This document shows, piece by piece, positions 376 through 12,260 of a DNA stretch of 64,000 nucleotides. The DNA comes from Albula goreensis (Eukaryota > Chordata > Actinopteri > Albuliformes > Albulidae). Location of the stretch: assembly GCA_022829145.1 (NCBI GenBank), contig CM040750.1, positions 5,394,255-5,458,254 of the forward strand, read 5' to 3'. The position numbers and the translations under genes are program-made. The notes beneath the pieces are model-generated. The model had not been told where the DNA came from. It saw only the letters and a program-made list of their open reading frames with translations, and did not search any database. Within the stretch, counting starts at the first letter, position 1. Each line of letters starts with the position of its first letter.

Positions 376-805
376 AGAATTGCTTTAAGAAAGTATTGTG
401 CAAGTCTCATTCATGAAAGGAGTGTGATCCTGTTTGCGATGTGAGATTTTAATTCCCCTTACAGCAGAGGAGGTAGTTGTAGTTATCCTGGATAATGTAA
501 TTCTGGATTGAATAATCAAATCACTATCCATGTTCGTGAAACCAAGTAAGACAGAGCATAGTTGATTAAAAAACACGATCCGGCTCTCCTCAACTTATTC
601 TGGATTGTTTAAGCAACGTAAGTGTAACGGTGGCCAGAACTGAAGTTTGACAACCTGCATTTACATAGCTCTGTGTGATGTACATACCCAATACATTACA
701 AAGCCAATGGCAGGGAATATTCACGTTTCATGTCCCTAGCCAGCTAATTATGACACGTACCATGGCGAGTAGGGCTATCAATGGCCAACTATTATCATTC
801 ATTGG
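376..805. other. Gene-free stretch
   Basis: No coding frame, RNA gene or repeat is recognised between the edge ORF and the inverted-repeat element. Confidence 0.5.
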
Positions 806-2426
806 CTGTGTTCCAATCCGAAATAAAAGCCTCCCTTCACTTCTTCCCTCCAATCGAGTGAGCCCTCCAGTGACGTAGCAGGCGAGGGAGCCCTTCCTGA
901 GTGAGGGGGAGCAATCTGCGTTCCAATCCGAAATAAAATCCTCCCTTCACTTCTTCCCTCCAATCGAGTGAGCCCTCCAGTGACGTAGCAGGCGAGGGAG
1001 CCCTTCCTGAGCGAGGGGGAGCAATGGAGGGGAAGGGTCGTGGCTTTTCGAATTGGAATGACCCTCGCGGTTCTTCCTCACTTTGCGTTCCTTCGCAAGG
1101 ATTGGATTGCCGTGATGTGTCCCTTGCAGGTTGCAGCACCTGTTCCAGTTCAACTCTCCACCGCAAAACCAATGTAAAGACAGAGAGAGTTCTCTCTAGA
1201 CTACATTATGCAACTTAACTATTAATATAGTTAGACAGTGAAGATGCATGTTGGCTAGATATGCCTACATATCTAGCATATTCCCCATGCCAAAATCCTT
1301 ATATTTTCCATGAGCATAAAATTATTTTAAATCGATTTTTTTATTTACTATTAATAGATGTGATGTTATTTTCAATAAAGTTGCCAAGCTTTTCCAATGT
1401 GAAACCACTTATTTGTATGCACAATTTAATAATCATATTGAATAATTATCACAATCATAACAATAGTTACTATAATTATTTGTGTAGCACCTTTTGAGCA
1501 GGGTGTGAAGTGATTCCCATAGACAAGTAAAGATAATTAATAAAATCGGTAACGATAAAATATGGTAAAACAGATCAGTAACTAACTGCAACAGTAACCA
1601 AGTAATGATAAATAAGTGTGAGGTGTAACAGGGTTTAAAAGTACATATGTGTAGAGACAGGTAAAATGATGAACAAAAAATAAAAATCAATATCAGAAGA
1701 ATTAACCCGAAATTATGCTGCCATATACACAGGCAATTATACCGGTATGTTTAAATGGCAATTTAAAAATAATTCGTGCTCAACAGAAGATTCTATTTCA
1801 TGCTGTGTGAATAATTGAAGCTTAAGGTAGCATAACTGTTACATTTAAAGATTCAGAAAATGTAGGTTATTCTTAACAAAATGCATGGCTACGGCAGCTA
1901 TGCCTCCACCAGCATATGAGAGCTTATGATTAAAACTTCATGGCCAAAACGTATATTTTATCAATGAACTTGATAAGCGGCTATTGAGTGTTGAGCATTT
2001 CCTTTGAATCTGTTAGATTTAAATAACGACCACCACCAACAACATAGCATTTTCGCGAATGGTTTGTATAATCAATCGGCAACAGAGGTCTGTGAACTTG
2101 GTAAACTTTTTTAAATGTGCTTGTTCTTTGCTAGCAAGAGCATAATATTCAAATAAAGTTTAACACGTGGGCAAGCGAGAGGCATCGCCGTGCATTCTGG
2201 GCAATATCAACGCTTGGAGGGATGATTTTTGTTGGTTCCGTTGGAGGGAGTGAAACCGAGGGCTTGAGCAAATGAAAATTCGCCCTTCCCTCAACAAATC
2301 TGGATTGGAATCGCCCTCACGGTGGCATCCATCTTACATACGGGACTTTTTGAGGATTCCCTCCTTGATTGAAGGGAAGTGAGCACGAAGAAGCAAGCAT
2401 TTTTTCGGATTGGAACGCAGCCAATA
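801..2426. mobile_element. Non-autonomous inverted-repeat DNA element, about 1.6 kb
   Basis: The ends are inverted copies. The left begins ATTGGCTGTGTTCCAATCCG at 801 and the right, read on the other strand from 2426, begins ATTGGCTGCGTTCCAATCCG, one mismatch in 20. Inner portions also resemble each other loosely: both ends carry a second CCAATC or GATTGG motif and CCCTCxCGG, giving an extended imperfect foldback. The interior is AT-rich with no transposase. This is how deletion derivatives or MITEs of cut-and-paste transposons look. I could not find a clean target-site duplication, so the superfamily is left open. Confidence 0.6.
806..1025 (+). repeat. 110-bp tandem duplication of the element's left end
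   Basis: Two nearly identical units start at about 806 and 916. Each contains the terminal GTTCCAATCCG motif, a CTTCCCTCCAATCGAG core and ends in GGGGGAGCAAT. The terminal inverted repeat is therefore present twice on the left side of the element. Confidence 0.8.
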
Positions 2427-2979: not shown

Positions 2980-3900
2980 GAATGCATCCCCTTTGTCAGC
3001 TAGAAGATGCTGAAATCTCGGCCTTGCAAAGACAAGTACTGAGCCTGTCAAATACGCCGACTAAATACGACAAGGAAGTTAGCCACAAGGATTTGTCGAA
3101 GTGTTTGGCAAGTTCCGATTTGCTCTCTGCCAAAAACAATTTCACCAATTCGTAAAGGCGCTGTACACTCTCCCTCTGGAAAACCAGCGTAGCACTGTGT
3201 GAAAGAGGAACTGCTCATGTTCAGAGCTTTATTGTAATTTATTATCTGAACCGCATTATGAAGGACAGACTTTAAGGGCTTCGGCATTATTTATTTATTT
3301 ATTCATTTTTTGCTGCGAGTGCCTCACGATGGATCATGCAATGAGTCTATCTTGCCAGCGGAGCTACCTGCTGGACGCGTGAGACCAGGCCACTCAAACG
3401 TCCCGTAATGGATCGCGCCCCATCGGTACAAATTCCTACATATCTGTCCCAGCAAAAGTCAGCATCTTTGACACTTGTGTCAACCACATTAAAAATCGCC
3501 TCACCAGGTTTGAAGAGGACGACAAAACAGAACACCCTCTTCAATCCCCTGGTCTTTGAGAAGGCAAAGGAAGTCTTACATAGGCAAGGAACTGGGCTTG
3601 CCCAGCTGTATCAGTGGTCTCATCTAGTTGCAGTGCATAATATGGACTCTGCCTCATACTATAGCAAGTGCTCTTCCACGTCATTTGCCAGATACAAAAT
3701 CCTGCGACCCATCGTGTCATTCGAAATCGGAATGGCACTGAGTTGAGTGGCAGCGCTTTCCCCAGGCATGATTCTGCACATTTCTCTTGTGCAGCAGGCA
3801 AAACCAGTGTCTCGGCTATAGTATGTGGCTTCCCAAGGGCATCACGTTTTCAAAGAGATAAGATTCTGCTTTTTCGAAACAATTATTTGAAATGTAGTCT
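2980..3900 (-). pseudogene. hAT/ZBED-type transposase, catalytic part, broken
   Basis: Reading leftwards from about 3,900, minus-strand frames give segments typical of the hAT transposases related to ZBED5 and SCAND3: KPHTIAETLVLPAA, then ALQLDETTDTAGQAQFLAYV (3,640-3,590), then CTDGARSITGRLSG (3,420-3,370), then LKSVLHNAVQIINY (3,270-3,230) and a degenerate LNLSLQGRD-like end near 3,000. LDETTD and CTDGA are hallmark motifs around the catalytic acidic residues. The segments sit in different frames, at least one in-frame stop is present, and the region around 3,660-3,740 is frameshifted, so no intact enzyme can be made. It is collinear with the BED-finger piece at 5,740-5,953, with only some 20-30 residues missing between them. 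It is therefore read as one element split by the CARD-gene segment. Confidence 0.8.
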
Positions 3901-4099
3901 AACATCTCTGATAAAAATTTAGTATGGAATATTAAGATGGACATAAGGACAATCTGTATAATTGTAACTTGACGCAGCTTTGGTCCGTTCACTAACCCGG
4001 ACGGACAGAAAAGAAAATTAAAATAAGAAAAAGGAAAAAAACAGATAGAGAGAGCGAAAAATAGACCCGCGCGAAAAGAATGACATCACTGAAAACTTA

Positions 4100-4273
4100 C
4101 ACCCACTCGCTGCTGGCAGAGCAAAGGCTAGTCTAGGCTACGGCCTGCTGCCACGCGAAGTGTGTATCCATTTTCTTTGCATACAAAGTTTTCTTTACAT
4201 ACAGTTTCTTCATACTCGTGCTTAATTTGTTGAAAGGAAACTGCGAATCACATCGAATTATCAGCGATATACA
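4100..4273 (+). promoter_or_regulatory. 5' flank and likely 5'UTR of the CARD gene
   Basis: This sequence precedes the predicted ATG. GAAAGGAAACT at 4232-4242 resembles an interferon-stimulated response element (GAAANNGAAACT) with the spacer one base short. No clear TATA box sits at a convincing distance. Assignment as promoter or 5'UTR rests only on position next to a well-supported gene. Confidence 0.3.
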
Positions 4274-5449
4274 ATGGCAGGTAAGATGCAGACAATCGTC
4301 TTAAGAAAAAAAATTGTCTTTAAAAATATGTGCAGACTATAGACTTTAAACATGCAAGTAAACAATTGCTTTGTTAAAAGTTAAAAACTTTGTGAGAACT
4401 AGTCTGATAAAAATCAGTTCAGTGGCAGAGAGCCACCTACACCTATGTGTATACATGTTTTATTGACAATTTTAGGTAAAATGTTTTAAATAGCCTTTAA
4501 TATCTTTAAATGTATAGAAGTACTCGTGGCATAGTTACTTTCGCTTTCAACTTGTTTCATTCAGGTTGCTAGAAGTTGCATAGATTATAGTTACGTAATG
4601 AAACAACGCTGTAATTAACTAAACGCCTTTAAGCATACTTAAAATGAATACCAATGACATCAAAAAAGCAAGGTCAAATTGTTTTTCACCATTTACATTT
4701 ATTGCGATGAAATATGAACTAATAATCAAATACTAATCAACACAGAAGATTAATTATTATTATTATTATTATTATTAAGAAGAAATTTGATGACAAAATA
4801 AAAGGCGGCTTGAAAGGGCGCATTGAACACTTTTTTAAGTTATGATTTTATAAGTAAGCTATTAGTAAAATAAGCAGCAGTAGCTCAAGTAACAGAACTA
4901 GTAGAAGGGGTAGTAATTAATAGTTATAAGAAGAATCATTAGTTGTAATTTAGTAGTAATAGTAGCAGTTGTCGCAGTTCAAGTAGTAGTGGTAATAGTA
5001 CAAGTTGTAGTTGTGAAAAGTAGTAAAAGTAGGCCTATAAGAAGTCACTTTGAACCTTAAAAGTTACTCATGATGATTGTGATGTGTATTATTTTATAAA
5101 CCTTTCAAGTGGAACATAAGGACATGTTTACGTAAATTAAGAAGAAAATAACATTACCCTTTCAATCTCTTAAACTGTTTTAACAGATGCTAAACTAACT
5201 GCTGCGAGGAGTATGTTTGTGAACAAAGTATCGATCCCTGTCATCAAGGGGTTACTTGATGACCTTTATGAAGATCGGGTACTGAACGACGGGGAAAGGG
5301 AAGAGGTGCTTGAAGTACACATGACGCGAATGGATAAAGCACGCAGTCTCATAGATATGGTGCGGAGGAAAGGTGCCAGAGCCAGCGAAATATCCTCCAG
5401 GCTGGAGGAACGAGACTCCAACCTCCATGAAGAGCTGGCACTTGGCTGA
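4274..5449 (+). CDS. CARD-only protein, caspase-1-CARD/ICEBERG-like, two exons
   Basis: Exon 1 contributes only ATG GCA G (4274-4280) followed by GTAAGA. Exon 2 begins at 5187 after TTTTAACAG and runs to TGA at 5447-5449, giving 89 residues. The protein starts MADAKL and is a single CARD: FVNKVSIPVIKGLLDDL (helices 1-2), then RVLND, then MDKARSLIDMVRRKGARA and a C-terminal EELALG. The start, the VLN block, the MDKxRxLID helix and the end match the caspase-1 CARD and the roughly 90-residue CARD-only proteins (CARD18/ICEBERG, CARD16), and teleost CARDs of this type. As I recall it, a minute first coding exon in the same phase is also the CASP1-family layout. No caspase domain follows; the stop is directly after the CARD. 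Known family members tune inflammasome or caspase-1 assembly through CARD-CARD contacts in the cytosol. That role is inference here. The gene lies antisense within a broken hAT transposase. Confidence 0.8.
4752..4776 (+). repeat. (ATT)n microsatellite in the CARD-gene intron
   Basis: A short pure ATT run lies in the 906-bp intron. Confidence 0.85.
4861..5035 (+). repeat. Cryptically simple AGT-rich tract in the intron
   Basis: The tract is dominated by AGT, AGC and GTA triplets with interruptions. It looks like decayed slippage DNA with no coding signal. Confidence 0.6.
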
Positions 5450-5713
5450 GTGTGACTTGCCTCCTGGGATGGTGAAAACATCCCTCAATAGTATTGTGTA
5501 AAACCAACAGTTTACTTGAAGCAATGGCTGTAAACAGTGGGGAAACTTATAGTTCTGTCCTGTCTTTATGTACTTATGTACTAAGGAAGCATACATCGTT
5601 GGGGGGGTGGATGATGAGGAACTGACTCACGGTGGATGATTTTGGTCATTTTTGTTAACATAACGCTTGTATTGGCACTTGTATTTGCCACTTGCTCCCA
5701 AAGACATTCATAC

Positions 5714-5734
5714 AATAAACACCTGCCAATAAAC
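5714..5734 (+). terminator. Two poly(A) signals for the CARD gene
   Basis: AATAAA occurs at 5714-5719 and again at 5729-5734, about 265 bp past the CARD stop codon. They lie just before hAT homology resumes on the other strand, so the interrupting segment appears to hold a full transcription unit. Confidence 0.6.
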
Positions 5735-5739
5735 ACATT

Positions 5740-5953
5740 TTCTTTTAAAGAAGTCAATCGGTTTGTCTTTTATTTCGGGGTGCTTGGTGTCCAAGCGTCG
5801 CTTTAATTTGCAAGGTTTCATTCTTTCGCTGGCAAGTACCTCCGCACAAATTAAACACTGTGGACGTGGTTCTGATGTGCTAGTTACCGAAAAACCGAAC
5901 TGCAAATAATTCTTATCGTATTTGCGGAGTTTTGTTTTTTCGGGAACTGGCAA
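5740..5953 (-). pseudogene. hAT/ZBED-type transposase, N-terminal BED-finger part
   Basis: A minus-strand frame starting near 5953 reads KYDKNYLQFGFSV, then CLICAEVLASERMKPCKLKR, then DTKHPEIKDKPIDFFKRK. This is the N-terminal region and BED zinc finger of ZBED5/SCAND3-like hAT transposases. The CxxC pair is present. The first histidine of the usual RRHLxTKHP motif is replaced by Arg (KRRLDTKHP), so zinc binding is probably lost. Homology stops after FFKRK at about 5740, exactly where the CARD-gene 3' end lies. It resumes at about 3900 with the next part of the same protein. Confidence 0.75.
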
Positions 5954-7149
5954 GGCATCCAGACGGAGCAGCTCTTTTCCCGCAAGTAAAAAATGTATCC
6001 ATAGTGTGCTAGCCTATGCTTCCCAAATTGAAAGTAGGCCTATTGGTTTTGGTTGATGTTTTGAGTGTATGTGTCGGTGTTGTACTTGTGATATGAAGAA
6101 GTACATGATAAAGGCAAGAGGCTATTACTCAGTAGGCTATTCGGAGGGCGATTGCAATGCTAGAACCTTAAAGATGGTAATGATACGACCACAAACCTGA
6201 GAAGGTGGGAAACAGCAACGATTAGCTCAGAAAGCAGAGTTAACTTGTTTAACTTGTTAGCTATGTTTATCGCGCAATACGAAACCAGTGTTGTTGACCT
6301 CAAGGCTAAGCTCAGTAGGAAGAGAAAAGAGATGGAAAGATGAAAGATTAGGATGTACTGCAGCGGAGACTGCAAAACAGAAACAAGAGAGGAGGGGCTG
6401 TTTAAAGAATACTGCTATAGCAGAGTCGTAAGGGCAAGGTTACGTTTTGAAACCGAAACGAGGAGATATAGAATAGCCTTTAAAAAGGCGGTTAACACTA
6501 TTGAAAAGCTGCAAAACTGATCAAAGCACAAAACACTATCGATATGCAAGTGGTATGTTTCCGATGACTGAACTGGTTTATATACTTGTGGACATCTGCT
6601 TAAGTTCGTTGTTGAGATTTCAAATGATAACTTTCAGTTTTCATTGGCCACGCTGAAGACAAACGTGTCTGATTTGTTGGTACAACTGTAGTCCTTGCCT
6701 CTTGCATTTTGCGAAGGACAGGTCTGTGACCATACGCCCCACAAGTAACATAATTTACTATTAGAGTGTTGTGTGAACATGGACTACAATCCCTACAGTT
6801 TTGTTGATAAACTGTTTACGTTAGCATTTCCGCCGCTTAATGTACAGCAGGGAAGCCTCTGGGCTGCCAAAAAAGATGGCAACGTCCACAAAAAATGTCT
6901 GCCTCATTATGTACCCTGCATTTTATTGGAGATTTGCAGCCTCTCTGATTTGATCCTTCATAAGAACAACCAATGGTAAGCTATCATTATCCAGTATAAA
7001 TCCACCTCATTTTCTTAATGACCTGTAGGGCCAGCTGGAAAAGGAGAATTTTCCTGAATGCAGGCAGGAGGACAGCAAAAACATAGTCTCCATCAAGAAA
7101 AGCCTTCAGTATGGTTGTTTTTCAGTGAATAAATACACTGTTAACCCAA
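5954..7149. other. Gene-free stretch
   Basis: No further transposase homology, convincing hAT terminal inverted repeat or gene is seen. The short frames here lack recognisable domains. Confidence 0.5.
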
Positions 7150-8195
7150 GTTATCACCTGCCTAACATGCTTTTGGTCCTCCTTGTGCTGCCAAAACAGC
7201 TCCGACCTGCCAAGGTATGGGCTCTACAAGACCTCTGAAGTTACCCTGAGGTATCTGGCACCATGATGTTAGCAGTAGATCCTCCCTGTAAGTTGGGAGG
7301 TTGAGCTTCTTGCTCTCCAGAAAATCCCACCGATGCTCAATCGGATTAAGACCTGGGGAATTTGGAGGCCAGGACAACATTTTGAGTCCTTTGCCATGTT
7401 CCTCATTCCGAATAATGTATGCAGCGTGGCTGGGCACATTATCTTGCTGAAAGAGGCCACTGTCATCAGGGAATACCATTGCGATGAATGTACCTGGTCT
7501 GAAATGATGTTTAGGTAGGTGGCACATGTCAAATTAGCATCCACGTGAATGCCCCGACCCAGGGTTTCCCAGCAGAATATTGCCCCAGATCATCACACTC
7601 CTTCCCCCACCCTGTCTTCTTCCCACAGTGCATCCTGGTGCCATCACCTCCCCAGGTAAACATTCCACATGATGTAAAAGAAAACGGTACTCATCGGACC
7701 AGCCGACCTTCTTTCATTGATCTTAGACCCAGTTCTGAGACACAAATGCCCATTGTAGGCATTTTCGGCGGAGGGCAGTGGTCAGCTTGTGCATTCTAAC
7801 GGGTCTGCAGCTGTGCAGACCCATACACAGCAGGGTGTGACGCACCTTGTTGTAACACATTCCTTTTTCTGTGACTTCTGCCACAGTGGCCCTTCCATCG
7901 GATCAGACCACATGGGATAGCCTTTGTCGCCCTTGTGCATTGATGAGCCTTGGGTGCCCAACACCCTGTCTCTGGTTCATTGTTTGTCCGCCCTCGGACC
8001 AGCGTCGATAGATACTCACCACTGCTGACCAGGACCACCGCACTAGCCTTTCCATGCCCGGGTTGCACCATCCCATCGGTGTACATTCCAATTCTGTAGC
8101 AGCTGACGCTATAGCAGCAGAAGCTTTGGCAGCGTTGACGGTAACTTCCACGCCGAAAACAATCTTAATTGCTGCCACAGGTGCACTTCATTGTC
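7150..8195 (-). pseudogene. Tc1/mariner-like transposase, degenerate
   Basis: On the minus strand the order is that of a teleost Tc1 transposase. The DNA-binding region ends VVSIYRRWSEGGQT then NQRQGVGHPRLINA (8,060-7,920). A decayed linker follows. The catalytic part has FPDDSGLFQQDNVPSHAA (7,470-7,420) then WPPNSPGLNPIEHRWDFL (7,370-7,320) and ends LLLTSWCQIPQGNFRGLV with VLAAQGGP. QQDN and the NPIEHxWD block are signature Tc1 motifs. Reading needs several frame changes, and the start and linker are damaged, so it is dead. Terminal repeats were not identified; the borders are approximate. Confidence 0.85.

Positions 8196-12260
<4,065 letters not shown>

Follow-up and report, generated by a model that had tools for sequence, protein, structure and literature searches.

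In Albula goreensis, a 1,886-bp DNA segment holding a complete CARD-only gene (together with its 5′ flank, intron and poly(A) signals) was inserted once on contig C10. The gene lies antisense between two minus-strand parts of one BED/hAT-like transposase relic. The account presented here comprises a single DNA insertion, an origin in the neighbourhood of caspase-1, a CARD kept by selection and a likely role as a decoy, and taken as a whole it is considered reasonably probable. The gene was identified within a stretch of 64,000 nucleotides at C10:5394255-5458254 (hereafter the window), the first 9,000 bases of which are without any N, and the genome searched was that of Albula goreensis (932 Mb).

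The plus-strand gene consists of two exons and encodes 89 aa, and its model is identical to the deposited protein P0001 (AGOR_G00113000). PF00619 (CARD) was matched over residues 5-87 with an E value of 1.2e-16 and the remaining Pfam match was sub-threshold, leaving a single CARD and no second domain, as is the rule for COPs. The best PDB sequence matches were to caspase-1 (E 2.2e-11), with ICEBERG (E 1.4e-8) following after further caspase-1 chains. A structure model generated from two sequences was weak (pLDDT 71.2, pTM 0.53; five models spanned 47.5-71.2); when this weak model was submitted to Foldseek, the caspase-1 CARD ranked first (E 0.011) and ICEBERG second (E 0.030), with zero matches at E 0.001 or better. 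A comparison of the CARD with a plasmid collection, of little use for a fish gene, gave no match. More than 400 bp of the insert lie upstream of the ATG, and the two AATAAA signals end 18 and 4 nt before the end of the insert; for points chosen at random in the window, the frequency of AATAAA in the preceding 30 nt is 0.027. A first-pass annotation of this DNA had described a plus-strand CARD gene nested in a minus-strand transposase, having an intron with consensus ends and two poly(A) signals at the junction. All of this was confirmed, by the Pfam match and a contiguous transposase copy on C5 for the nesting, and by the GT-AG ends and the signals at 5714 and 5728 for the gene parts.

Table 1. 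Coordinates, in window positions, of the inserted segment, the CARD-only gene and the surrounding transposase relic
Feature	Position	Strand	Remarks
Next part of the same transposase relic	2996..3851	-	Frameshifted; ~31-residue deletion near 3,840
Left copy of target duplication	3847..3851	+	TTTTC, 5 bp
Inserted segment	3852..5737	+	Ends from L051 empty site
Exon 1, coding part	4274..4280	+	ATGGCAG; phase 1 donor GTAAG
Intron	4281..5186	+	GT-AG, 906 bp; read from sequence
Intron piece matching C11	4954..5075	+	76% over 122 columns to C11:25357087-25357200, E ~1e-18
Exon 2, CARD and stop codon	5187..5449	+	TGA at 5447-5449
Two AATAAA signals	5714-5719 and 5728-5733	+
Right copy of target duplication	5738..5742	+	TTTTC, 5 bp
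N-terminal/upstream part of BED/hAT-like relic	5738..6742	-	BED-finger piece 5738-5938

In order to set the limits of the insert, the window was compared with the nearest relative of the relic, a copy of the same subfamily on C5 (loci L051 and L027, which are one place) that carries the empty site and in which both relic parts are contiguous. In the L051 alignment the left side of the window ends at base 1729 and the right side starts at base 1725; because the two sides overlap by five bases on L051, TTTTC is doubled around the insert, which measures 1,886 bp in plus-strand reading. The duplication is perfect and zero transposase sequence was lost at the insertion point, while a match of at least 5 at two random window breakpoints has a frequency of 0.0015. 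The segment entered the relic in the orientation opposite to the transposase, and 5 bp of target were duplicated while none were lost. The first-pass annotation had placed the resumption of the transposase at ~3,900, about 50 bp off the actual position of 3851, and had suggested looking for target duplications at ~3,900 and 5,740; the right one was found as TTTTC at 5738-5742, and the left copy lies instead at 3847-3851. Bases 3852-3910 are part of the insert and not of the transposase. A left edge at 3909/3910 without duplication, based on a short R-D-V match, was ruled out by a KRDAL match in the C5 copy. No inverted repeats were present as termini at the ends of the insert.

Within the Albula genome the insert is single-copy, the exceptions being the CARD exon, one piece of the intron, stretches resembling simple repeats and a weak match of 73 bp. 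Searching with insert DNA from position 3900 returned the insert itself, the caspase-1 exon on C11, a second piece on C11 and 30 short matches (69-79%) confined to a simple-repeat-like intron stretch. The 5′ flank is single-copy except for one 74% match on C8.

Contig C11 carries a full caspase-1 gene, AGOR_G00126440 (CARD and Peptidase_C14), which has the same exon 1 ATGGCAG, donor GTAAG and phase as the window gene. The two CARD exons are 76% identical in DNA and 67% in protein. The intron piece listed in Table 1 has its counterpart on C11 on the same strand as caspase-1, upstream of the CARD exon (by 3.7 kb) and of exon 1 (by 2.7 kb); at three control loci there was either no match or a 27-bp one at E 0.021. 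Since this piece is found at just one other place in the genome, and that place is near caspase-1, it points to DNA-level copying from there, and derivation of the gene from the C11 caspase-1 neighbourhood, through copying at the DNA level of a CARD gene of caspase-1 type, is supported by sequence comparison. The introns, 5′ flank and 3′ region aligned with C11 no better than shuffles did, which may mean that the copying is old or indirect. The order of parts also differs: exon 1 lies between the piece and exon 2 on C11 and before the piece in the window. A 40-bp portion (5036-5075) is 95% identical to C11:25357161-25357200, matches nowhere else in the genome and is far better kept than the exons; it is possibly a regulatory element common to both genes.

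The Albula caspase-1 gene has a protease domain and a longer CARD exon that runs on to a GTGAGT splice donor, whereas the frame of the window gene stops with TGA at TGAGTG. Loss of the donor could have created the CARD-only form; direct alignment of the C11 donor site with the window stop site was no better than chance. A tree was calculated from 25 chosen CARD rows, two of them the same Albula caspase-1, and in it the window gene pairs with Albula caspase-1 at a support of 85/92 (below the program's 95/80 mark), with branch lengths of 0.36 for the window gene and 0.21 for caspase-1. Descent from a caspase-1 CARD, the second character of COPs, is indicated by this pairing at below-mark support, the 67% protein identity and the same exon 1.

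A CARD-only protein of caspase-1-type sequence (99 aa) is likewise encoded by AAFF_G00036870 of Aldrovandia affinis, which apparently adjoins the caspase-1 gene of that species, as judged by neighbouring locus tags on contigs of equal length. Orthology with the window gene was dropped on account of the 96% identity between the Aldrovandia gene and the caspase-1 of that species; the tree agrees, pairing these two, and 0 of 200 bootstrap trees unite both CARD-only proteins. The Aldrovandia pair P0002/P0018 is in itself either a further CARD-only gene of recent birth or the product of a truncated gene model.

An older CARD-only gene beside caspase-1 on C11, in the arrangement known from primates, later moved or copied to C10 with the intron piece left behind, would fit the position of that piece (C11:25357087-25357200) outside the caspase-1 gene and on its strand, as well as the adjoining locus tag in Aldrovandia. 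However, the surroundings of the C11 piece yielded no CARD exon, the piece could be a regulatory element kept by both genes, and the 96% identity in Aldrovandia suggests an independent, recent birth. This older gene is regarded as unlikely, though it is the strongest of the alternatives, and copying of a caspase-1-type gene from the C11 neighbourhood is preferred.

Constraint on the window CARD was assessed by using a panel of 20 caspase-1 sequences chosen from fish; several of these sequences share a species. The majority residue is kept at all 25 of the sites conserved at 90% or more in this panel, and the 11 private states occur at variable positions (mean conservation 0.45 vs 0.68 expected, P 0.0006). 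Given that the 25 conserved sites are all kept, the gene is probably functional; dN/dS between the two Albula CARD exons is less clear (0.42 by NG86, 0.88 by YN00). Neutral simulations with 64 substitutions kept an open frame in 22% of cases and reached the observed protein identity in 4%. The frame might alternatively belong to a decaying pseudogene that is open by chance, as the YN00 value, the share of simulated frames still open at this divergence and the branch longer than that of caspase-1 would allow. Against this stand the retention of every highly conserved site, the restriction of private changes to variable ones, the rarity of the observed protein identity under neutrality and the presence of splice sites, start, stop and poly(A) signals, and a pseudogene is held to be improbable. 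Selection to keep the CARD fold is thus the favoured reading, supported though not proved.

Provided that the gene works, its likeliest role, at roughly even odds, would be that of a decoy: a protease-less CARD able to bind caspase-1 or its adaptor and thereby to cap filaments or block their growth. The nearest parallels are CARD16, CARD17 and CARD18 (COP/Pseudo-ICE, INCA and ICEBERG), which are, like the window gene, lone caspase-1-derived CARDs of ~90 aa. Passages of PMC3775265 and PMC7555848 describe COPs in humans and higher primates, near the caspase cluster, and these two sources together with PMC11383037 place the primate CARD-only genes beside caspase-1. The latter source reports duplication and gene conversion at the primate caspase-1/COP locus and inhibition of caspase-1 by CARD16/17/18 through competitive binding. 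Unlike these genes, the window gene stands on another contig than caspase-1 (C10 vs C11), inside a transposon relic, and the tree indicates that it arose independently; a position beside the caspase-1 cluster is not essential to the kind of protein. An iridovirus protein of 91 aa, GIV-CARD, is described in PMC4457926 as similar to ICEBERG. It is also a lone CARD in fish biology, but it is a viral gene, likened by description only, whereas the window gene groups with Albula caspase-1 in the tree. Among open-licence papers, no title on a fish CARD-only gene was found.

Somewhat short of an even chance, and put forward tentatively, is the fuller proposal that an ICEBERG-like regulator of the inflammasome, of the CARD-only type, evolved independently in bonefish, a lineage outside the primates, and at a site other than the caspase-1 locus. 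On this view, a DNA copy from the caspase-1 neighbourhood would have come to rest in a dead transposon, bringing along its own promoter and poly(A) signals as well as a 40-bp element that it still has in common with caspase-1. If the gene is expressed and its product binds caspase-1, decoys of the CARD-only type had a separate origin in a bony fish, and such an origin, if true, would run against the restriction to primates expressed in those reviews.

The segment may have been cut in when a staggered break was repaired with a piece of genomic DNA, or through an integrase; either would fit the 5-bp duplication, the lack of poly(A), the kept intron and the unique ends. The first-pass annotation had argued from the intron against a spliced retrocopy, and this holds, as the 906-bp GT-AG intron is kept. 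With regard to the features of processed retrocopies, the intron was not lost and no poly(A) tail is present, while a target duplication (5 bp) is. An unspliced transcript that was reverse-transcribed and inserted with its intron keeps some weight, because the AATAAA signals, 4 and 18 nt before the insert end at a chance frequency of 0.027, suit such a transcript; a short duplication is likewise present. The junction itself, however, has no poly(A) tail, AATAAACACA running directly into TTTTC, and the order of the target appears unfit for poly(A)-primed insertion. Furthermore, more than 400 bp upstream of the ATG were carried along with the intron, and on C11 the counterpart of the intron piece lies upstream of caspase-1 exon 1. 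An intron-retaining retrocopy is therefore rated as quite improbable, and insertion of a DNA fragment is retained.

In order to determine whether the transposon carried the gene, match numbers of the two were compared across the Albula genome. Of 4 candidates scored with the CARD protein, 2 were matches, namely the window gene and C11 caspase-1; this search reaches close relatives only, and the CARD genes of ASC and NLR type were unmatched by it. The transposase family (query P0003) gave 142 matches at E 0.001 or better, with 150 of 239 candidates scored. Thirty transposase loci were fetched, one of them the window; 25 of the 29 others cross the junction uninterrupted and four stop short. No second CARD-bearing transposase copy was found in the Albula genome, and with 2 CARD matches vs 142 transposase matches, one insertion is therefore concluded. 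The transposon looks like a landing site and not a carrier.

Capture of the CARD gene by a hAT element, with carriage as cargo, was suggested by the gene lying wholly and in one piece inside the transposase, between two parts of one element. It is rejected as highly improbable on the match counts in the Albula genome and the loci crossing the junction, and also because the insert ends have their own target duplication, the insert breaks the transposase and the element is truncated. Repeated element copies sharing one host segment, the mark of hAT cargo or Pack-type elements, were not seen, the CARD matches being two with caspase-1 included. Of the possibilities left by the first-pass annotation (captured by, inserted into or cargo of a hAT element), insertion into the relic thus stands on the 5-bp duplication, the related empty site and the unique ends; capture and cargo do not. 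Its idea of a transposon spreading death-fold domains was not borne out here, nor were other CARD copies with flanking hAT sequence found in the same genome, where only C11 caspase-1 matched. It had reasoned that intact copies without the segment and a CARD found only here would favour a single insertion, and the comparison came out so. An immune regulator would here have arisen through a single insertion of DNA that brought its own gene parts, the transposon relic being mere landing ground.

That the two transposase pieces come from different elements, the nesting being an illusion, is negligibly probable: the decay of the relic and the end of a deposited copy (C14) at window position 5834 speak for it, but one C5 copy is continuous across both sides with the 5-base overlap, as expected of pieces from a single element.

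On the minus strand the BED-finger piece reaches to 5738, and the transposase resumes at 3851. Just past the insertion ~31 residues (counted against P0003) are absent, with KRDAL running straight into GKPHT; this loss is a deletion separate from the insertion, with CTTG microhomology. P0003 and P0007, short proteins from other sources, span the junction and match the relic, which is by comparison a frameshifted fragment, with nothing of the transposase recognised below ~2,990. The C14 copy is 83% identical over window 5834-6036 and 73% out to ~6684, with a further piece to 6742, and is cut at 5834; a second C5 copy (L052) is without the junction region. Homology of the transposase copies stops at 6742 on one side and the other end of the element is missing. 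We take the relic for hAT from transposase signatures, and its family is presumably a BED/hAT-like transposase of the ZBED5/SCAND3 type. Pfam scanning of the relic and the relatives scanned recovered no hAT domain and only sub-threshold zinc-finger matches (zf-BED on P0003, E 0.021, below cut-off), and a PDB sequence search with a 410-aa transposase relative found nothing.

Additional mobile-element sequence was observed around the relic and its relatives. Window positions 796-826 and 2400-2429 form inverted ends (90% over 31 nt) bounding an element of ~1.6 kb, and an ORF inside this element is also present at ~9478-9813 of locus L015, ~4 kb from the C14 transposase relative. Minus-strand ORFs at window 7162-8164 resemble what we take to be a decayed Tc1/mariner transposase. 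At L054:2617-5529 (C10:4.04 Mb) a 970-aa open frame, presumably of Ty1/copia type, lies near a BED/hAT-like copy. Several transposase matches stand close together, as if clustered, at C1:31.5-34.0 Mb and C5:40.5-42.1 Mb.
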